DNA from: Roseobacter sp.
GTDB taxonomy: Bacteria; Pseudomonadota; Alphaproteobacteria; Rhodobacterales; Rhodobacteraceae
Direction: 5' to 3'
NCBI GenBank assembly: GCA_015665415.1
Contig: JADFAE010000014.1
Coordinates: 1-64,000 of the forward strand
DNA: 64,000 nt
The translations under genes and the position numbers were made by a program. Under the pieces are notes generated by a model. The model was not told the DNA's origin, made no database searches, and was given only the letters and a program-made list of their open reading frames with translations. Shown piece after piece: positions 25,182 to 34,958 of this stretch (the stretch's first letter is position 1; the number at the start of each line of letters is the position of its first letter).

Positions 25182-26213
25182 TCAGTGCTTGTGGAAATAC
25201 GCCAGATTCGAGGTCATGACCTCGACGTGGCTGCGCATCGCCGCGTCAAAACGACGGTCTTCACCATATTTGGGGCGCAGTGTTTCAATTGCCTGTTCTG
25301 CAACGGCATCATGGAATGCGTTCACCCAAACCAGGACATCTGTCGCCGGATTGATGAACTGCTCAAATTTGATCTGCCCCAAGGCGGCACCGGTCGCATT
25401 GCGAACGTCAGCCACCAGTTCCAGGTGTTTGTCGATATCTGCACGCGAACCGACGTTACCGTGACCGGCATTCAAAAAGTCCCATTCCAGGGTTTTGACA
25501 TAGCGCAAGGTCTCTTCCATTGGGGCAATGTCCAGCAGACCGACAAAACGGAAGTAGGGCAGGAAATCTTCGGGTTCGACCGTATCCAGATAGTGCAGAA
25601 CGCGCTCCTGTTCGAGCAGGAACAGGGTGTTGTCGATGCTGTGCGTATCAGCAGTACCTTCGACATAGACTGTCAGCCCTTCAAAGGAGAAAGACCCGGG
25701 ATCGTTTTCGACCACATCGGTGGGAACTGGGATGACATTGCCGTATTTCTCAACCTGGCTGGCGACGGCAGCGGGTGCGATAATCCGCAGATCAGCGCCC
25801 TTGGCAGCGGCTGCATCAACAAAAAGCTGTGCGTCCCCCAGGTGATCGAGGTGATAGTGTGAATAGACCAGGTCGGTCACTGGCAGATCGGTGATCGAAC
25901 TGATGGCGTCAAGAACGCCCTGACCATAGCCGTAGGACAGCGGATCAAAGACCAGAACGCCTGCGTCGCCGACATAGACAGTTGCGTTATGGGTGCTGAC
26001 CGACACCATATAGGTGCGGTCGGTCAGTTGCTGCACAACGAAGGGCTCAGTATAGCGCCGCATCGCCAGGTTTTCTACATATTGACCGGGCTGCAACTTG
26101 CTGCTGGTCTCAGCATGCGACAAAGACGGCGTCGTAAGTAGCGTAGCGGCGGTCAGAACCGCGAAAGAGGTTGCGCCCAAGAGCGCCCGGGTTTGCGAAA
26201 AGAGACGTGGCAT
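25182..26213 (-). CDS. Exported metallo-beta-lactamase-fold hydrolase
   Basis: 343 residues from ATG 26213, which has AGGAGA seven bases upstream. The first 34 residues are a Sec signal peptide (basic LFSQTR region, hydrophobic core, SLSHAE cleavage site). The MBL zinc motif is SHYHLDHLGDAQLF near residue 115, with GTADTHSIDNT and LNAGHGNVG supplying further metal-site histidines. Substrate unknown; periplasmic location is inferred. Divergent from hxlR with 101 bases between. Confidence 0.86.
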   Translation of the reverse strand: MPRLFSQTRALLGATSFAVLTAATLLTTPSLSHAETSSKLQPGQYVENLAMRRYTEPFVVQQLTDRTYMVSVSTHNATVYVGDAGVLVFDPLSYGYGQGVLDAISSITDLPVTDLVYSHYHLDHLGDAQLFVDAAAAKGADLRIIAPAAVASQVEKYGNVIPVPTDVVENDPGSFSFEGLTVYVEGTADTHSIDNTLFLLEQERVLHYLDTVEPEDFLPYFRFVGLLDIAPMEETLRYVKTLEWDFLNAGHGNVGSRADIDKHLELVADVRNATGAALGQIKFEQFINPATDVLVWVNAFHDAVAEQAIETLRPKYGEDRRFDAAMRSHVEVMTSNLAYFHKH

Positions 26214-26242
26214 TTTTATTCTCCTGATTGTCATGAGAATCG

Positions 26243-26295
26243 GATATAGTTACCTGAAGAACATCTCTCTACATGCAAGAAAGTGTGCTGCTAAC
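26243..26295. promoter_or_regulatory. Promoter/operator block shared with the NmrA-like gene (copy 2)
   Basis: GATATAG at 26243 and TCTACATGCAAGAAAGTGTG from 26268, ending GCTGCTAAC. It lies between the exported MBL gene and hxlR and matches the block at 24967-25019 in content and spacing. It probably serves the MBL gene as promoter and both genes as operator. Confidence 0.7.
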
Positions 26296-26314
26296 ATGAA
26301 TGTAAGGACGTAAA

Positions 26315-26659
26315 ATGACCGCAGAAAAAATGGCTGCAGAAATGAATCTCGGACCTGTTGACCGTTGCCCAGTGGAAACCACAGTCGAGATTATTGGCGG
26401 CAAGTGGAAGACGGTTTTGATGTATCATTTGGTTTCGGGCGAAAAGCGCTATTCGGAACTGCAACGGCTCGCCCCGCAGGCCTCGGACCGTATGCTCTCG
26501 CGGTCGTTGAAGGAATTGGAAGAAGACGGGCTGGTGCGGCGTCAAGTCTTTGCTGAAGTCCCGGTTCGGGTAGAATACAGTCTGACCCAAGATGGTGAAA
26601 CGCTTGTCCCGATCTTGAACGCGATGGGAGAATGGGGCAGCAATCGAACAAATCGCTAG
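26315..26659 (+). CDS. HxlR-family redox-responsive regulator
   Basis: 114 residues. The HxlR winged-helix signature is clear: CPVETTVEIIGGKWKTVLMYHL followed by FSELxxxxPxAS-type RYSELQRLAPQASDRMLSRSL, and a wing VRRQVFAEVPVRVEYSLT. Cys18, just before PVE, is the conserved redox or electrophile-sensing cysteine of this family. The divergent MBL and nearby NmrA-like genes carry the shared promoter block and are the likely regulon. Confidence 0.93.
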   Translation: MTAEKMAAEMNLGPVDRCPVETTVEIIGGKWKTVLMYHLVSGEKRYSELQRLAPQASDRMLSRSLKELEEDGLVRRQVFAEVPVRVEYSLTQDGETLVPILNAMGEWGSNRTNR

Positions 26660-28096: not shown

Positions 28097-28903
28097 TCAG
28101 CCGCCTATACCTGCAAGCCGGAACGCGCCTTCAGGGTGGTTGGTGTCGCCACCAAGGCCTCTCCGCAGGCATTCCAGAAGATAGACCTCATAGTGTTCAA
28201 CGTTGGCGAGGTTCACTTCTGTGCCCAGCGTCGACACCATCTTTGACGCCATCTTGTGTTTCATCGCGTCCGTAATGCCGGGGAGAATATTCACTGGCAG
28301 TTCAAAAATCAGAGCCTCGGCCGGGAAAGTGTCTGATAACTTTCGGATCAGCGCCTCGCGTGCTGTTTCGCCGTCAAAGATTTCGGCAGCTTCCAGATAG
28401 ACCGATGACGCGCCAGCATTGAGATAGGTCTCGACGTCAGCCATGATTTCATCATCCGTCATCTCGCCTTCCTTGCGGCCCACTTCACCCAGAACAGTTA
28501 GCCCGTAGTTCTCTTTTGCGTGGCGCACCGCATTTGTTTTTTCCGACGCGCTCAGTGGTTCAAGGTTTTCCGACACCTCAACGGAATCAAAACCCAATTC
28601 CGCCATCTCGGACAGCATTTCGTTGTAAGTGCCTTGCTTCAGGGTCAGTTCGGTGAACAACCCCCCGTTAGCTGTCGAAATCCCTGCGGCGCGATAAGCC
28701 GCCAGTTTCCGTTTCAGCAAATTCACTGGCATGAAACGAGGAATGCCCGCAGCAATTTTTGCCTTGTCAATCAAGTGCCCCTGCGCTGCAATGATATCCG
28801 CTTGCTGTGCCTCGGGGATGCCCCAGTCGATCATCATCGTGAGGCCTCGGTTGCGTGGCTTTACTTGCCGCTCGGGCACGGCGATCTGAGAGAATGCTGT
28901 CAT
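28097..28903 (-). CDS. ComA-like (phosphosulfolactate synthase family) protein
   Basis: 268 residues from ATG 28903. Segments KPRNRGLTMMIDWGIP, HLIDKAKIAAGIPRFMP, GGLFTELTLKQGTYNEML and GFDSVEVSENLEPLS match the ComA TIM-barrel family, whose archetype joins sulfite and phosphoenolpyruvate in coenzyme M synthesis; plant HSA32 and various bacterial members have other or unknown roles. The start overlaps the end of tctA by four bases (ATGA), so it is translated as part of the transporter operon. With a sulfatase in the divergent operon a sulfonate- or sulfite-linked reaction is a reasonable hypothesis, not shown. Confidence 0.8.
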   Translation of the reverse strand: MTAFSQIAVPERQVKPRNRGLTMMIDWGIPEAQQADIIAAQGHLIDKAKIAAGIPRFMPVNLLKRKLAAYRAAGISTANGGLFTELTLKQGTYNEMLSEMAELGFDSVEVSENLEPLSASEKTNAVRHAKENYGLTVLGEVGRKEGEMTDDEIMADVETYLNAGASSVYLEAAEIFDGETAREALIRKLSDTFPAEALIFELPVNILPGITDAMKHKMASKMVSTLGTEVNLANVEHYEVYLLECLRRGLGGDTNHPEGAFRLAGIGG

Positions 28904-30489
28904 AGTGTGGGTGTCTTTCTGCGAGCAGAATACAAGATAATCCCGACCGAAGCGGCCATGAACGCGGCGGCGATGGGGTGGGTGAACAGGAACCATGGGT
29001 CGCCGCCCGTGGCGGCAAATGCTTGGCGCGCACTGTCTTCCAGCTTGGACCCGAGGATAAACGCGATCACGAAAGGCAGAGGCGATATATTCAGTGTGCG
29101 CATTAGATACCCCAGCACACCGAAGCCAAGCGTGAACCAGATTGCCTCCATGCGGGTTTCCTGTACATAAATCGCAGTCAGTGTGAGCAAAAGAACGCTC
29201 GGCAACAGGATGTGCTTGGGAATTCGAACCATGACCCCCATCGACCGCATGAACACCCCACCAATGGTCCAGTTCAGCAAGTTAGCAATCATCATCGCCG
29301 TAAATAGCCCAAAGGCCACTACAAGCTCAGGGTTCACCTCATCTGCTGTAAATCGAAAAACGGACGGCCCAGGGTTGAACCCCCCGATGCTCTCGGCCGC
29401 CAGGATCAAAAATACCGCTGCTGCGTTGCCCGGGATACCAAGGCTGAGGACTGGAATCAGATTTGCCCCGGAGACCGAAGAGTTAGCGGCTTCGGTGGCA
29501 GCGATCCCTTCGGCTGCACCTTTGCCAAAGTCGGGCGCATCAGGGCGTTTGAGCTTGGCATAACGTGATCGCCCGACCGTGTAGCCCAGCGTTGCTGCCA
29601 GAGTTGACCCGATGCCAGGCAAAGCACCAATAACGGTGCCGATCACAGCTGAGCGCCCGATGAAGGGAAGCAACCTGCGGATGTCAGCCCAGTGAAGGCG
29701 CTGATCTCCTTCGTCCCTTTGTCTTGGAACGGTGCCGCTGGTGCGTTTCTGAAACCAGAGATCCTGAAGCTCTTTCAGAACGGCTCCGATGATCAGGACA
29801 CCCAGAATTGCCGTCGAAATCGGAAACCCCCGACTTAGGGTCTGGCTGTCCATCGACAAACGCGGATAGAAATCTTCGCCGGTGCCTATGAAGACGGCCA
29901 ATAGGCCAAGGCCCGTTGAAATTAGCCCTTTGGCCGGGGAACCGCCAATCACAGTGGCAATGAAGCTGAGCGACAGAATCAACAGTGCCGTTTTTTCAGG
30001 CAAGTCCAGATAGGCTTCAACCAGCAGCGCCAGGAACGGCGCGCAAACAAACAGGACAATGTCGGAAAACGTATCCCCTGAGGCCGAGGAAAAATGTGCC
30101 ACCCGCAACGCTTTCTTGGCTTTGCCACGTTGGGTCATTGGGTAGCCGTCCAGCGTGGTCATAAAGGCGTCTGGCGTTCCCGGGGTGTTGAACAGAATGG
30201 CAGGCACTGCGCCACCAATTGTGGCTCCTTTCATGACACCGATAAGGAAGCCGAGAACCGGCAACAAAGCATCAGGTGTATATCCAAAGACGGAAATCAG
30301 AATTGGCAATGCGATTGCCATGGCGATCGGTCCGGCCAATCCAGGCGTCGCACCAACAGCAATCCCGATCAGGAACCCCGCAAAAATCATGACCAAAGTG
30401 ACGGATACTGGCAGGCCGAGAATGGAGAACAGTTCGGGGCCCTGAAAAACAGACAGGATCCCCATCCAGATATAGTCGAGAGTACCCAT
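28900..30489 (-). CDS. tctA: Tripartite tricarboxylate transporter, large membrane subunit TctA
   Basis: 529 residues, about 12 membrane segments. Family motifs: VGATPGLAGPIAMAIALPI near residue 45, KGATIGGAVPAILFNTPGTP near 88, and the internal repeat IGALPGIGSTLAATLGY, then GIAATEAANSSVSGANLIP and LSLGIPGNAAAVFL. TctA forms the channel of TTT systems, which import carboxylates or sulfonated and other organic acids using a periplasmic receptor. Coupled to tctB (one-base overlap) and the ComA-like gene. Confidence 0.95.
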   Translation of the reverse strand: MGTLDYIWMGILSVFQGPELFSILGLPVSVTLVMIFAGFLIGIAVGATPGLAGPIAMAIALPILISVFGYTPDALLPVLGFLIGVMKGATIGGAVPAILFNTPGTPDAFMTTLDGYPMTQRGKAKKALRVAHFSSASGDTFSDIVLFVCAPFLALLVEAYLDLPEKTALLILSLSFIATVIGGSPAKGLISTGLGLLAVFIGTGEDFYPRLSMDSQTLSRGFPISTAILGVLIIGAVLKELQDLWFQKRTSGTVPRQRDEGDQRLHWADIRRLLPFIGRSAVIGTVIGALPGIGSTLAATLGYTVGRSRYAKLKRPDAPDFGKGAAEGIAATEAANSSVSGANLIPVLSLGIPGNAAAVFLILAAESIGGFNPGPSVFRFTADEVNPELVVAFGLFTAMMIANLLNWTIGGVFMRSMGVMVRIPKHILLPSVLLLTLTAIYVQETRMEAIWFTLGFGVLGYLMRTLNISPLPFVIAFILGSKLEDSARQAFAATGGDPWFLFTHPIAAAFMAASVGIILYSARRKTPTL

Positions 30490-31055
30490 TAAACGTCTCC
30501 GTTGGGAGGCAGCAGCAAGTCATCGAAAGGTACGTCGTAGACGAAGATCATTGCGATCACCGCTGCAACGGCAATCAGAATCGCACGGAGGCGAAGCTGG
30601 CCTTCGACCAGTCCTACCAAGCCGGATATCATCATTGTGCCACCAAGAAGAAAGCCAAGGTATTTCCACGGTGCATTGTCCCGAAGCAAGCGGTATTCCA
30701 GATCTCCGCCTTGCAAAGCATTGACCATCCAAACCGCCAAGGGGCCGGTCCAACGCATCACGATCAGGCTTGCCGCAATGATAAAGATAGCGGCAGATGC
30801 GAATATCAAACCGCTCATGGAAGATGTTGATTGACCGGGCGCATTGCGTTCTGTGAGGATCAAAAGCAGGCCACCAACTATCAGGAATAGTCCTGCGACG
30901 GTGGGTGCCAGAGCATCCCCGATGGTCACCTGCCGTCGCACCTTTTCTATCAGACCGGTCTGGGTATCCATCGGTATCCAGACAGTAAGAAGAATGAGCG
31001 CAAAGCTCAGAGTGAACAGACCCAAATAGAGATTGTTCTTGGAAGGGGCAGGCAT
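30489..31055 (-). CDS. tctB: Tripartite tricarboxylate transporter, small membrane subunit TctB
   Basis: 188 residues with four hydrophobic segments (near 10-30, 48-68, 80-105, 130-180 as two close helices), the TctB profile. ATG 31055 has AGGAG six bases upstream. Sequence conservation in TctB is poor, so the call leans on topology and on position between tctC and tctA. Confidence 0.88.
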   Translation of the reverse strand: MPAPSKNNLYLGLFTLSFALILLTVWIPMDTQTGLIEKVRRQVTIGDALAPTVAGLFLIVGGLLLILTERNAPGQSTSSMSGLIFASAAIFIIAASLIVMRWTGPLAVWMVNALQGGDLEYRLLRDNAPWKYLGFLLGGTMMISGLVGLVEGQLRLRAILIAVAAVIAMIFVYDVPFDDLLLPPNGDV

Positions 31056-31078
31056 GCAGATCTCCTGTCACAAACAAA

Positions 31079-31108
31079 ACGGCCGGGCTCCCGTGTTGAG
31101 GAAGCCCG
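31079..31108 (-). terminator. Attenuating hairpin between tctC and tctB
   Basis: On the minus strand CGGGCTTCC pairs imperfectly with GGGAGCCCG (31108-31100 with 31092-31084), followed by a T-rich GTTTTGTTTG. It probably lets the receptor tctC be made in excess over the membrane subunits. Confidence 0.5.
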
Positions 31109-31123
31109 ACAAGTCGGGATTGA

Positions 31124-32074
31124 TTATTCGGATGCCGCTTCCATCAAAGTGCCAGAGCTGGCGAACTCGGATGCCATCAACTTGGAGAGAGCTTCGCCAG
31201 ATATTGTCGCAGCACCTCCAAAGGCCCTTTTTATCAGGCCGCCTGCCTTGGTGTTCTCATCACTAACGACATCCGAGATCGCCTTGCTCAAGGCATCACG
31301 TGCCTCGGCAGGCATGCCAGCGGGGCCAACGAATACAAAGTAACCATTGGCGTTGAAATTGACACCAAGGTCAGCAAGCGTTGGCGCGTCGGGTGTTTGG
31401 ATCAGAGGTGTCGACAAGCCTGAGGCCAGGTTCACCAGATCGCCAGCGGCCACGCCCTTGGCCTGAATGCCAGCCATAAAGCCGATATCAATGTCGCCAG
31501 CGTTGACGCCGTTTAAAACAGCTTTGCCGCCCTTGACCGACACGATGTTGAACTCGACGCCCTGCGATTTTCCAAGGAGATAAGCAAGATCGGCCAGTTT
31601 CGGGCTCATCACACCAAAACGAATACTCTGTCCACTTTTGGCAGCAGCGATCATGTCGTCGAAACTGTTCCAGCCCTTGGAGGCCGGGGCGACCACACCC
31701 ATCTGAAACCCAGCCGTGGTGGTCAATCCGGTGAAATCTTCGGGTGACATGCCCGCATTTGCGGCAGCCATGTTGTAGCCAAAGGTTTCGGTGACTGCCA
31801 GTCCTATGGCGGTGCCATCATTGGGTTGGCTCTTTAGCGCGTTGGCCATGTTCAGGCCACCCTTGCCAGTTACTTGCTCTGGAATGAACTTCCACCCCAT
31901 GCGGTTTTCCAGCTCTTCTGCAATCAGCCGCGCTTGCGTGTCCGCGCCGCCTCCCGCCCTGAATGCGATCATCAGTTTGATCGGCCCGGGAGGGGTCCAG
32001 TCGGAGGCCAGAGCCCCAGTTGCCATCAAAGCTACGCCAAGTGCTGCAATGCCTGATTTGATTAAATGTTTCAT
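31124..32074 (-). CDS. tctC: Tripartite tricarboxylate transporter receptor TctC
   Basis: 316 residues with a signal peptide cleaved after ATGALA (residue about 23). PIKLMIAFRAGGGADTQARL is the usual TctC N-terminal ligand motif, followed by NGVNAGDIDIGF and late FVGPAGMPAEARDAL. The typical carboxylate-binding aspartate or serine positions cannot be mapped reliably by eye. GGGAGGA sits just before ATG 32074. The gene is first in the operon and its promoter overlaps the paired MarR-type palindromes at 32122-32156. Confidence 0.94.
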   Translation of the reverse strand: MKHLIKSGIAALGVALMATGALASDWTPPGPIKLMIAFRAGGGADTQARLIAEELENRMGWKFIPEQVTGKGGLNMANALKSQPNDGTAIGLAVTETFGYNMAAANAGMSPEDFTGLTTTAGFQMGVVAPASKGWNSFDDMIAAAKSGQSIRFGVMSPKLADLAYLLGKSQGVEFNIVSVKGGKAVLNGVNAGDIDIGFMAGIQAKGVAAGDLVNLASGLSTPLIQTPDAPTLADLGVNFNANGYFVFVGPAGMPAEARDALSKAISDVVSDENTKAGGLIKRAFGGAATISGEALSKLMASEFASSGTLMEAASE

Positions 32075-32121
32075 ATCGTCCTCCCTGAACGTGGTATTTC
32101 ATCAAGCTTGCGTTTACTTTG

Positions 32122-32156
32122 GTTGATCCGTCAACAAAAAAGTTGACCTATCAACT
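32122..32156. promoter_or_regulatory. Tandem palindromes GTTGA-N4-TCAAC, probable MarR operators
   Basis: GTTGATCCGTCAAC at 32122-32135 and AGTTGACCTATCAACT at 32141-32156 are both perfect dyads with a 4-base centre. Their centres are 20 bases apart, about two helical turns, so two dimers could bind one face. They lie 48 bases upstream of tctC and 42 bases upstream of marR. The adjacent MarR protein is the obvious binder; that is inferred. Confidence 0.8.
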
Positions 32157-32197
32157 TGCTACTGCCAAGTTGGAGTAAGAAACGAGGAGGACGCTTT

Positions 32198-32674
32198 ATG
32201 GCTGACAGCATGTTGGACGAGTCCATTTTGGACATGCCGCTGGAGCAGATGGTGACATTTCGCGTGTCTCGCTTGCACGCAAAAATGAGCGCTCAAGCGT
32301 CCAATATCCTAAAGAATTCCGCTGGAATTTCTCTGATGCAATGGCGTGTGTTTGTGATGCTTGAAACCCACGGTAAACTAACTCCAGCGGCCATTGTACG
32401 GCGGACGGAACTGGACAAGGGGCAATTGAGCCGCGCTATCAAAGGCATGGTAAACGCAGGGCTGATCAGCAGCGCACCATCCGAATCAGATCAACGAGCA
32501 CATGTCATCGACTTTACCGAAAAGGGCCTTGAGGTCTTTCATCTGGCCCGACCGCATATGCGGCAGCGCCAGACGCGCCTGCTCAATTCGATGACCGCCG
32601 CTGAGCGCGAGGCCCTGTTTGGTGCGATGGAAAAACTCGATGCTGTTGTGGATGAACTGGAGGCGGAACAATGA
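32198..32674 (+). CDS. MarR-family regulator of the TTT/sulfatase cluster
   Basis: 158 residues from ATG 32198 (GAGGAGG eight bases upstream). Winged helix in residues about 45-115: GISLMQWRVFVMLETHGKLT, RRTELDKGQLSRAIKGMVNAG, then wing SAPSESDQRAHVIDFTEKG. A MarR dimer typically binds short palindromes such as those at 32122-32156 and releases them on binding a small acid. Its last four bases overlap the sulfatase start (ATGA), so it belongs to the sulfatase operon and probably represses both divergent operons. Confidence 0.92.
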   Translation: MADSMLDESILDMPLEQMVTFRVSRLHAKMSAQASNILKNSAGISLMQWRVFVMLETHGKLTPAAIVRRTELDKGQLSRAIKGMVNAGLISSAPSESDQRAHVIDFTEKGLEVFHLARPHMRQRQTRLLNSMTAAEREALFGAMEKLDAVVDELEAEQ

Positions 32675-34113
32675 CCTCGAACCTGCTGATCCTCATGTCC
32701 GACGAACACCAGGCCCGAGCCATGGGCTGTGCGGGCCATCCGCTGGCGCAAACCCCAAATCTTGATGCATTGGCAGCGCGGGGTACCCGTTTCACCGATG
32801 CCTATACGCCATCGCCAATCTGTGTCCCAGCTAGGGCGAGTTTCGCCACTGGACGGTATGCCCATCAGACACGCCTTTGGGACAACGCAATGCCCTATGA
32901 TGGGACAATTCCCGGATGGGGGCAGGCTCTGCAAAGTCAGGGGGTGTCAGTGGAAAGTATAGGCAAATTGCACTATCGCGCCGAAGAAGACCCCGCCGGA
33001 TTTGACACTGAGCACTTGCCGATGATGGTTTCCGGTGGTGTAGGCATGGTCTGGGCTTCCATTCGCAAAGAAGATGAACGGATCATCGGCAAAGGCCGGA
33101 TGCTGGGCGATTACATCGGTCCCGGCCACAGCAAGTACACAGACTATGATGCGGCGGTGACGTCCCGCACCCGACAATGGTTCGCGGATCGCGCGGCAGG
33201 AGAGAATAATCAGCCGTGGTGTCTCTATGTTGGCCTTGTCGCGCCGCATTTCCCTTTGGTTGTGCCTCAGGAATTCTTTGATCTCTACCCGCTCGACAGC
33301 TTGCCGGATTCAAAATTGCATCCCCGCGACGGTTATGCCCGACACCCTTGGGTCGAGAAACAGAACAGATTCATGGACAACGAAGCCAAGTTCGAAAGCG
33401 AAGAAGAGCGGAAAGTCGCGCTTGCCAGTTATTTTGGGTTGTGTTCGTGGCTGGACTACAATGTCGGAGAGATCCTCGCCGGTCTCAAAGAGGCTGGCTA
33501 TGGGGATGATACCACCATCGTCTATACCTCGGATCACGGCGACAATCTTGGCGCACGCGGCCTATGGGGCAAATCCAACCTCTATCAGGAAAGCGTCGCT
33601 GTGCCGATGATCATGGCAGGGCCAGACATACCAATAGGCACCTGCGAAACACCGGTCAGTCTGTTGGATTTGTCGCAAAGTATCTGCACCCATTTTGGCG
33701 CTCAACTGGATGGTGCAGAAGGCCTTTGCGCGCTCCCTGATGTCATCAAAGCTCCGGAAGACCCAGACCGCATGATCTTTTCTGAATACCATGCTGCCGG
33801 TGCCGTTTCGGGCGCATTCCTGGTTCGAAAGGGGCGCTGGAAGTACCATCATTACATCGGTTTTCCTCCAGAGTTGTTTGATCTGGAAACTGATCCTGAA
33901 GAAACGACTAATCTGGCTCGGAATAGCGATTTCGCCGACATATTGGCGATGATGGAACAGAGTTTGCGGGAGATTTGCAATCCTGAGGCCACCGATGCTC
34001 AGGCTTTCGCCGATCAAGCTGCCCTGATTGAAAAACATGGCGGGCGCGATGCCGCCCTCAAACTTGGCGCCCCCGGCGCAACCCCTCCCCCTTCCTTGGA
34101 GACACCCAAATGA
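32671..34113 (+). CDS. Type I sulfatase (choline-sulfatase-like alkaline phosphatase superfamily)
   Basis: 480 residues. Formylglycine signature SPICVPARASFATGRY puts the modifiable Cys51 and Arg55 in the CxPxR motif; Asp11/Glu12 in LMSDEHQARA and DHGDNLGARGLWGK (around residue 290) supply metal ligands. Sulfatases hydrolyse sulfate esters; relatives with this core also cleave phosphonate or phosphate monoesters, so the substrate is open. No signal peptide, so action in the cytoplasm on an imported compound is likely, in line with the divergent TTT importer. Needs a formylglycine-generating enzyme, not in this window. Overlaps the MarR gene and the next MBL gene by four bases each. Confidence 0.9.
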   Translation: MTSNLLILMSDEHQARAMGCAGHPLAQTPNLDALAARGTRFTDAYTPSPICVPARASFATGRYAHQTRLWDNAMPYDGTIPGWGQALQSQGVSVESIGKLHYRAEEDPAGFDTEHLPMMVSGGVGMVWASIRKEDERIIGKGRMLGDYIGPGHSKYTDYDAAVTSRTRQWFADRAAGENNQPWCLYVGLVAPHFPLVVPQEFFDLYPLDSLPDSKLHPRDGYARHPWVEKQNRFMDNEAKFESEEERKVALASYFGLCSWLDYNVGEILAGLKEAGYGDDTTIVYTSDHGDNLGARGLWGKSNLYQESVAVPMIMAGPDIPIGTCETPVSLLDLSQSICTHFGAQLDGAEGLCALPDVIKAPEDPDRMIFSEYHAAGAVSGAFLVRKGRWKYHHYIGFPPELFDLETDPEETTNLARNSDFADILAMMEQSLREICNPEATDAQAFADQAALIEKHGGRDAALKLGAPGATPPPSLETPK

Positions 34114-34958
34114 AATTGACCATTCTCGGATCCGGATCACCAGAAGCCTATATTCGGCGCGCCTCTACAGGGTATCTCCTGGAAACTGGTGACGATAAAA
34201 TTCTGTTCGACTGCGGCGGTGGGGTGGTCGATAACCTCATTCGCTCAGGCCGTTTGCCAAAAGACATCACGCATCTGTTTTTCACCCATCTGCATACTGA
34301 TCACATGATGGACTATGCGCGTCTGGTTCATGCAGCCTGGGATGAGGGAGCGCCACCGTTGAAGGTTTGGGGGCCGGCGCCCATTGCTCGCCAGACTGAA
34401 TTACTGTTCGGCAGGGATGGCGTGCTGTCGCCTGATCTGGTCGCCCGAACTGAACTGCCCCCCAGCCAACAGGTCTGGGTAGCACGTGGTGGCACGCTTC
34501 CACGTGCCTGGCCCACACCCGAGGTGACTGAAGTGAAGCCGGGATTCTCATTCGAGGGGAACGGCTGGGTTTTGAAAAGCTGCGAGGTGCCACACGCACA
34601 GCCTGCCTTTGATTGTATGGCTTTTTCAGTGGAAGCAGTTGGCAAGAAATTCGTTTACTCTGGAGATGCAGGCATCTGCAACGATCTTAGCTCTTTACAG
34701 CAGGATGCCGACCTGCTGATCCATTGGTGTTACCGCCTCTCCATCGACAATATCCATCCTGCAATCGCTGAATTCTCACCGACCCCTGCCGACATCGCCA
34801 AAGCGGCGCAAGCGGCGAGCGTTAAACGTCTGCTCATTACCCATTTCCGCATTCATATGGACAGCGAAGAAGGGCATGCCAGCGCAAACGCTGAACTTTC
34901 TCAGCATTTCGATGGCCAGGCCAATATTGTCGAGGATTTGGATGTTTACACAATCTGA
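34110..34958 (+). CDS. Metallo-beta-lactamase-fold hydrolase, RNase Z/AtsA-like, coupled to the sulfatase
   Basis: 282 residues. MKLTILGSGSPEAYIRRAST opens the MBL fold, HLFFTHLHTDHMMDY gives the HxHxDH dizinc motif near residue 58-64, SGDAGICNDLS and LLITHFRI give later metal ligands. The group includes RNase Z-like hydrolases and AtsA-type arylsulfatases. No signal peptide. Co-translation with the sulfatase (ATGA overlap) implies a step in the same pathway, perhaps on the desulfated product or as a second esterase; specificity unknown. Confidence 0.88.
   Translation: MKLTILGSGSPEAYIRRASTGYLLETGDDKILFDCGGGVVDNLIRSGRLPKDITHLFFTHLHTDHMMDYARLVHAAWDEGAPPLKVWGPAPIARQTELLFGRDGVLSPDLVARTELPPSQQVWVARGGTLPRAWPTPEVTEVKPGFSFEGNGWVLKSCEVPHAQPAFDCMAFSVEAVGKKFVYSGDAGICNDLSSLQQDADLLIHWCYRLSIDNIHPAIAEFSPTPADIAKAAQAASVKRLLITHFRIHMDSEEGHASANAELSQHFDGQANIVEDLDVYTI

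Follow-up and report, generated by a model that had tools for sequence, protein, structure and literature searches.

A ComA-like gene in the position of a second sulfatase in a putative sulfo-acid uptake cassette of Roseobacter sp.

The locus considered here, seven genes and a paired operator at positions 28097-34958 of a 64,000-nucleotide stretch from Roseobacter sp. (contig JADFAE010000014.1, positions 1 to 64,000; hereafter the window), resembles several described systems in part. In the cytoplasm, the carbon-sulfur bond of sulfolactate is cleaved by SuyAB, which belongs to a protein family other than ComA, and to our knowledge the system that SuyAB forms with the importer SlcHFG includes no sulfatase, metallo-β-lactamase (MBL) or ComA-like protein. 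The canonical ComA (phosphosulfolactate synthase) reaction is the addition of sulfite to the phosphoenolpyruvate (PEP) double bond; enzymes of this kind include YitD of B. subtilis and a plasmid enzyme of Xanthobacter autotrophicus Py2, which we take to be XcbB1. The ComA-like protein of the window shares the Pfam family, the TIM-barrel fold and the invariant core of these enzymes, but it lies in a separate clade, misses the equivalog model, differs at three residues of the M. jannaschii enzyme and has no coenzyme M-type genes labelled nearby. With choline sulfatase BetC and other S1 sulfatases, the first sulfatase of the window (SULF1) shares CxPxR and an aligned catalytic set, while differing in its missed TIGR03417 model and in its neighbour, a tripartite tricarboxylate transporter (TTT). 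SlcHFG, a TTT importer for sulfolactate in Roseovarius nubinhibens and Chromohalobacter salexigens (PMC5812351), sets a precedent for the import of a sulfonated hydroxy acid by this transporter class. For acesulfame, one enzyme family replaces another at a single step, an MBL-type sulfatase in Bosea/Chelatococcus and a formylglycine-type sulfatase in Shinella (PMC11500405). That exchange is a precedent for enzyme replacement but concerns another substrate and other genes, and the accessible part of the source mentions no ComA-like protein. An acesulfame-type pathway at this locus is rejected, with neither Bosea nor Chelatococcus among the 22 plasmid records matching the window MBL, and the exchange is kept as a precedent only.

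The closest likeness is to a commoner cassette of Rhodobacterales, tctC-tctB-tctA-SULF2 facing marR-SULF1-MBL, of which the window is one variant: importer, regulator, operator motif, SULF1 and MBL are the same, and a ComA-like gene replaces the second sulfatase gene, SULF2, after tctA. At the level of sequence, the TTT importer, MarR with its paired operator, SULF1 and the MBL are shown to form one conserved unit, which is accompanied by SULF2 or by a ComA-like protein and never by both in the 29 loci compared. The combination of importer, sulfatase and regulator is a known kind of system; the unusual point is the ComA relative in place of a sulfatase, a position that suggests, tentatively, a route of sulfur-group removal not recognised so far. 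A first-pass annotation of the window had not foreseen that the ComA-like gene is, by its placement, an alternative to the second sulfatase of a commoner cassette. In the literature searched, we found no description of the TTT-sulfatase cassette and nothing pairing phosphosulfolactate synthase with a TTT importer or with a sulfatase.

Open reading frame calling, Pfam and a palindrome scan confirm the seven genes and the operator pair of the first-pass annotation, at or near the coordinates given there:

28097..28903, minus strand: comA-like gene, 268 aa, TIM-barrel protein of PF02679, occupying the SULF2 slot
28900..30489, minus strand: tctA, large permease of the TTT importer, 529 aa, PF01970
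30489..31055, minus strand: tctB, small membrane subunit, named by position and size
31124..32074, minus strand: tctC, periplasmic solute-binding protein of the TTT importer, PF03401
32122..32135, no strand: operator palindrome 1, GTTGATCCGTCAAC, from the motif scan
32142..32155, no strand: operator palindrome 2, GTTGACCTATCAAC, 20 bp from palindrome 1
32198..32674, plus strand: marR-type regulator gene, 158 aa, MarR_2
32671..34113, plus strand: SULF1, type I sulfatase-family hydrolase, 480 aa, PF00884, Cys51/Arg55
34110..34958, plus strand: MBL-fold hydrolase of the RNase Z / YhfI / MBL-type arylsulfatase group, 282 aa, Lactamase_B_2

The assignment to the TTT class follows from the domains of TctA (PF01970, 2.2e-96) and TctC (PF03401, 1.3e-12), both over the Pfam cut-off, which flank a small membrane subunit that has no match in the Pfam search and is TctB by position only. 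The marR product matches MarR_2 at 2.1e-14. The best start of the comA-like gene is 28903, where its ATG shares four nucleotides (ATGA) with the tctA stop; tctB and tctA overlap by 1 nt, and marR/SULF1 and SULF1/MBL by 4 nt each. The earlier statement that all genes overlap translationally holds for these four junctions and is slightly too strong, since tctC and tctB are separated by 68 nt. The operator, situated between tctC and marR, consists of two palindromes GTTGAnnnnTCAAC, which are the only two matches in the whole 64-kb window, where shuffles lead one to expect 0.07. The exact pair recurs in four of the six other comA-type cassettes (L015, L024, L025 and L026), with one exact copy each in L018 and L028, and exact copies are also found in several SULF2 loci (L101, L103-L106, L115 and L118).

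One cassette with SULF2 or a ComA-like gene

A search with the MBL protein, independent of ComA, has matches at E<=1e-40 in 25 of the 295 family genomes. The sample read comprises 23 of them (the window's own genome G000, G073, G200 and 20 added regions), setting aside the weakest two, G040 and G185, as well as second MBL copies in G201 and G176. It contains three cassettes with ComA-like sequence, 16 with SULF2, none with both, and four regions without tctA (L102, L110, L113 and L116). The 16 SULF2 cassettes, all among the 20 added regions, combine tctC-tctB-tctA with SULF2, mostly opposite marR-SULF1-MBL; in L117 and L118 the MBL gene lies elsewhere within the locus, and L111 has no marR match. 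None of these 16 genomes is among the ten family genomes with a ComA-like match. Over all 36 loci compared, which were collected partly by ComA- and sulfatase-based searches, 29 have tctA and SULF1; these carry SULF2 without a ComA-like sequence in 20 cases, a ComA-like sequence (counted at >=45% identity) without full SULF2 in seven, neither in two (L054 and L055) and both in none. Five of the seven ComA-like genes are apparently intact, one is a remnant and one is split over contig ends. Two further loci with ComA-like and SULF1-like genes, L088 and L089, stand outside the 36.

The same gene set had been recommended for a search in other Rhodobacterales, and six further cassettes are indeed present; in one of them the comA-like gene is reduced to a remnant, and in another it is split. 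At E<=1e-3, ten of the 295 family genomes, the window's own among them, hold a ComA-like relative, and of the others only that of G073 (76%) and the G200 remnant are close. Scanning species genomes with the same protein adds eight loci, the close L024, L025, L026 and L027/L028 (the last two from Sulfitobacter brevis) and the distant L029-L031. The importer, MarR, SULF1 and MBL of the window are shared by L015 (G073), L018 (G200) and the close scan loci, and all seven families occur together in the window, L015, L024, L025 and L026; tctA is 83-86% identical to that of the window in L015, L018, L024, L025 and L026 and 69% in L028. The ComA-like gene is full-length and open in the window and four other cassettes (73-79% identity).

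In the window clade, the comA-like gene directly follows tctA and so takes the SULF2 slot. In L018 (8205-8610) it is internally deleted and carries a stop, with the remaining cassette genes matching at full length. In S. brevis it lies behind the MBL gene, split across two contig ends, and a 54-residue SULF2 remnant (70-76% identical) persists near tctA at L028:2138-2299. In the phylogeny of joined tctA, SULF1 and tctC, the ComA state must have changed at least twice, and three times if the best tree is followed; S. brevis forms a group with three SULF2 cassettes there (100/100). In G000, G073, G1025 and G1026, the best long SULF2 matches among those listed reach 32-36%, with shorter pieces to 46%, the S. 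brevis remnant aside.

The ComA-like protein and its relatives

The ComA-like protein carries the PF02679 domain (172.4 bits against a cut-off of 25.2; 1.4e-50) and falls short of the equivalog TIGR03849, a model built for archaeal ComA (145.2 bits against the 280 needed). Its AlphaFold model, with a predicted local distance difference test score (pLDDT) of 83 and a predicted template-modelling score (pTM) of 0.82, finds its best structure match (rank 1) in 1QWG, with TM scores of 0.81/0.86. A tree of 45 rows, from which the remnant of L018, the split gene of S. brevis and L023_1044 (a second, distant ComA-like row) are left out, places the eight canonical rows in one group (99/99) and the six rows of the window group in another (99/99). 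The rows nearest to the window group, L080, L082 and L083, are all uncharacterised; kinship with enzymes of known unrelated function, named earlier as an observation that would count against the sulfur-related reading, does not appear in this phylogeny.

Of the 49 columns near-invariant in the canonical rows, 31 are kept in 6/6 window-group proteins, including Lys43 and Lys137 of M. jannaschii; L023_1044 is also left out of these counts and is kept among the 37 non-canonical rows whose gene context is described below. In the window group, other residues stand in for Arg170, Lys209 and Arg244 of M. jannaschii, and the canonical motifs E[AG]RESG and FEAPxKxxQ are replaced in all six proteins of the group. 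The window protein itself lacks the arginine of ExRESG and the lysine of FEAPxKxQ and retains Lys49, Glu140, Lys144 and Arg247. Two of the eight canonical rows, L073 and L074, retain the arginine and deviate in the rest of the first motif. The replaced residues are presumably phosphate or sulfite binders. Judged by its sequence, the window protein is not a phosphosulfolactate synthase, and the earlier reading of it through the known ComA reaction is not supported by clade, equivalog score or motif residues.

The gene neighbourhoods, taken from local BLAST labels within 8.5 kb and on some short contigs, separate the two kinds of protein as well. TTT genes or genes of tripartite ATP-independent periplasmic (TRAP) transporters lie near 20 of the 37 non-canonical rows, a set that includes two rows from one locus and four from the window's cassette type, near 16 of 33 without L015/L024/L025/L026, and near 0/6 canonical rows. 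A ComB- or fumarate-lyase-type gene, the latter presumably XcbC, adjoins five of the six canonical rows and is labelled near none of the 37. Outside the canonical clade, about half of the ComA-like rows thus have acid importers in their vicinity, and the coenzyme M genes searched for adjoin none, despite the annotation 'phosphosulfolactate synthase' that PF02679-family proteins carry in the plasmid records examined. In profile searches, PF02679 has a match in 19 of the 385 genomes examined at class level and in 5 of the 398 at phylum level.

Other arrangements are seen among these relatives. The sister-clade genes in L080 (8167-10858) and L082 (7820-10511) stand in the order M20 hydrolase-comA-like-RidA, and that in L083 (7066-9230) adjoins M20 alone, with no RidA found; no TTT or sulfatase gene is labelled in these three 18-kb loci. 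In L064, L065, L075, L076, L077 and L090, ComA-like genes accompany TTT importers and MmgE, partly with PrpF or TcuA, and these clusters suggest a further, uncharacterised acid pathway.

Hydrolases and substrate class

SULF1 matches PF00884 (Sulfatase, 147.3 bits, 7.7e-43) and carries the C-x-P-x-R motif of type I (S1) sulfatases as CVPAR at 51, which bears out the claimed Cys51/Arg55; no signal peptide is obvious by eye. Its best solved relatives are choline sulfatases (6fny, 9e-63), with which it has D11, C51, R55, K99, H101, H193, D288, H289 and K301 in common, E12 replacing Gln, and it misses the choline sulfatase equivalog TIGR03417 (263.2 against 433.45 bits). The best solved relative of SULF2 is the carrageenan sulfatase 6pt4 (1.1e-47). 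The MBL protein matches Lactamase_B_2 (8.4e-14), and its HxHxDH (60-65), H162, D186 and H245, taken here as metal ligands, are invariant in 5/5 aligned cassette MBLs. It misses the RNase Z equivalog TIGR02651 (94.8 against 292.95 bits), which leaves a fold match only, and resembles YhfI, MBL-type arylsulfatase, RNase Z and, weakly, PhnP; the predicted structure of the MBL protein is of middling quality (pLDDT 71), and the fold matches found with it serve as a guide only.

The neighbouring oxidases point to the substrate class. In five of the 22 tctA+SULF2 loci (L058, L059, L117, L120 and L121), an α-hydroxy-acid oxidase of the LldD kind follows tctA and SULF2; L058 and L059 are near-copies, and L120 and L121 have no SULF1 match. 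In L054 and L055, a GlcD-like gene comes directly after SULF1. From the oxidase behind SULF2, we infer a sulfated (or sulfonated) α-hydroxy acid as the substrate, desulfation of which would yield an α-hydroxy acid. Organic-acid import followed by handling of the sulfo group in the cytoplasm, as first proposed, gains support, and the oxidases beside some SULF2 loci narrow the range of acids. FGE (formylglycine-generating enzyme) genes adjoin some of these gene sets. In Sulfitobacter mediterraneus (L061:1-17404), a SULF1/SULF2/TTT/FGE set lies beside homogentisate-pathway genes, hinting at aromatic sulfates. Zosteric acid was considered as a substrate and rejected, no link being found in the literature searched.

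Proposed mechanism and alternatives

The locus is hypothesized to be an inducible uptake-and-desulfation cassette with a ComA-like lyase in the place of SULF2, a reading to which, as a whole, we assign a probability of about 0.45. The TTT importer would bring in a small carboxylate with an O-sulfate or C-sulfonate group, most likely an α-hydroxy-acid derivative, and MarR would be released by the substrate or a product. SULF1, elsewhere also SULF2, would hydrolyse the sulfate ester in the cytoplasm, and an oxidase of LldD or GlcD type, whose gene accompanies some sister cassettes but not this one, would act on the freed hydroxy acid. In the most speculative step, the ComA-like enzyme would do the work of SULF2 through lyase chemistry: the ComA-type reaction, reversed on an unphosphorylated sulfo-acid, would eliminate sulfite (or sulfate) and leave an enol(pyruvate)-type product, a parallel to the action of SuyAB, from its other protein family, on sulfolactate. 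Among the parts of this reading, the sulfo-acid uptake cassette is probable, and the gene comparisons tip slightly towards the ComA-like protein as a functional alternative to SULF2; that it is a lyase applying ComA-type chemistry to an unphosphorylated sulfo-acid is a tentative and rather unlikely proposal. A shade more doubtful, a branch of the ComA superfamily may be a catabolic carbon-sulfur (or C-OSO3) lyase recruited at least twice into a sulfated-acid uptake cassette in place of a second sulfatase; its sister branch, linked to RidA in two of three loci, might split sulfite or some other leaving group off an amino acid and so produce an aminoacrylate for RidA to clear. A desulfonating or desulfating lyase, if true, would be a new enzyme type in organosulfur turnover and would correct a common annotation; the exchange of ComA-like protein and SULF2 makes the question directly testable, with two enzymes in one importer background.

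Several observations weigh against this mechanism. A lyase would leave the persistence of SULF1 and the MBL unexplained, and no sulfite oxidase or exporter is seen among the seven genes. An insert near canonical Lys209 makes the alignment of that column uncertain, and the importer association of the ComA-like rows stands without a genome-wide background rate for comparison. Seventeen of the 22 tctA+SULF2 loci show no α-hydroxy-acid oxidase, and L054 and L055 manage with neither a ComA-like gene nor SULF2. The exclusion rests on few evolutionary events: all but one of the seven comA-type cassettes are closely related, and nested in the window clade (98/99) is L100, which has SULF2 and no ComA-like gene. 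A SULF2-like gene (64-65%) is located elsewhere in genomes G1023, G1024 and G200, so the replacement is not genome-wide there, and the decay in L018 and the split in S. brevis indicate that the role of the ComA-like gene may be dispensable.

Sulfatase maturation is a further difficulty. The first-pass statement that the enzymes look functional, made from their intact motifs, is incomplete: the own genome, a 40-contig assembly, gives no FGE match in a family search with controls, none in a protein search run without a positive control, and no match to the anaerobic sulfatase-maturating enzyme (anSME). Four sulfatase-family genes are matched in the same genome. PF03781 (FGE) is matched, in some cases weakly, in 4/7 comA-cassette genomes and 12/16 SULF2 genomes and is not found in the remaining three and four; the absence is thus recurrent and not special to the own genome. 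According to one study, unmodified choline sulfatase retains low multiple-turnover activity, and in E. coli Cys-type sulfatases are matured by an unidentified, suspected third system (PMC6189696).

The leading alternative, possible though unlikely, holds that the ComA-like protein acts on an unrelated carboxylate in the breakdown of imported acids, be it as lyase, isomerase or aldolase, and that SULF2 is excluded where the importer has shifted to another substrate. The varied neighbours of non-canonical ComA-like genes (TTT with MmgE/PrpF/TcuA, TRAP, M20 with RidA), which have little in common beyond carboxylates, agree with it. The closeness of the window to the SULF2 cassette L100 (tctA 80%, SULF1 77% and tctC 78% identity) speaks against a wholly new substrate, and S. 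brevis provides a second case.

A cassette that imports an organophosphorus acid, with its sulfatase-family enzymes acting as phosphodiesterases or phosphonate monoester hydrolases (PMH), is improbable. The sulfatase superfamily is promiscuous, SULF1 also matches the PMH-type structures 4upk and 2w8s, 4upi/4upl ('sulfatase family') and, below cut-off, PehA, and the MBL likeness to RNase Z and PhnP fits the same idea. The nearest solved relatives of SULF1 and SULF2 are nevertheless choline and carrageenan sulfatases, and nine SULF1 residues are identical to choline sulfatase, although residues alone cannot decide between sulfatase and PMH because the K-x-H pair is present in 4upi and 4upl too.

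Still less probable is a neutral passenger that landed after tctA and is already decaying, as the deleted L018 copy and the split S. brevis copy might suggest; the gene is open and full-length in five cassettes, overlaps tctA by 4 nt in the window, takes a different position in S. brevis, and has a 56% relative beside marR-, SULF1- and TctC-like genes in another family (L088). The canonical role, in which sulfite, its sulfur drawn from the imported compound, is joined to PEP to give phosphosulfolactate for sulfonate or coenzyme M synthesis, has PF02679 membership and the 1QWG fold in its favour and is rejected as very improbable on clade, motifs, the half-reached equivalog score and gene context, the sulfatases moreover yielding sulfate and not sulfite.

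Outside the cassette, at 25182-26659, an HxlR-type regulator gene and a divergent VarG-like MBL gene, which scores below the VarG cut-off and whose product has an apparent signal sequence, form a separate two-gene unit.

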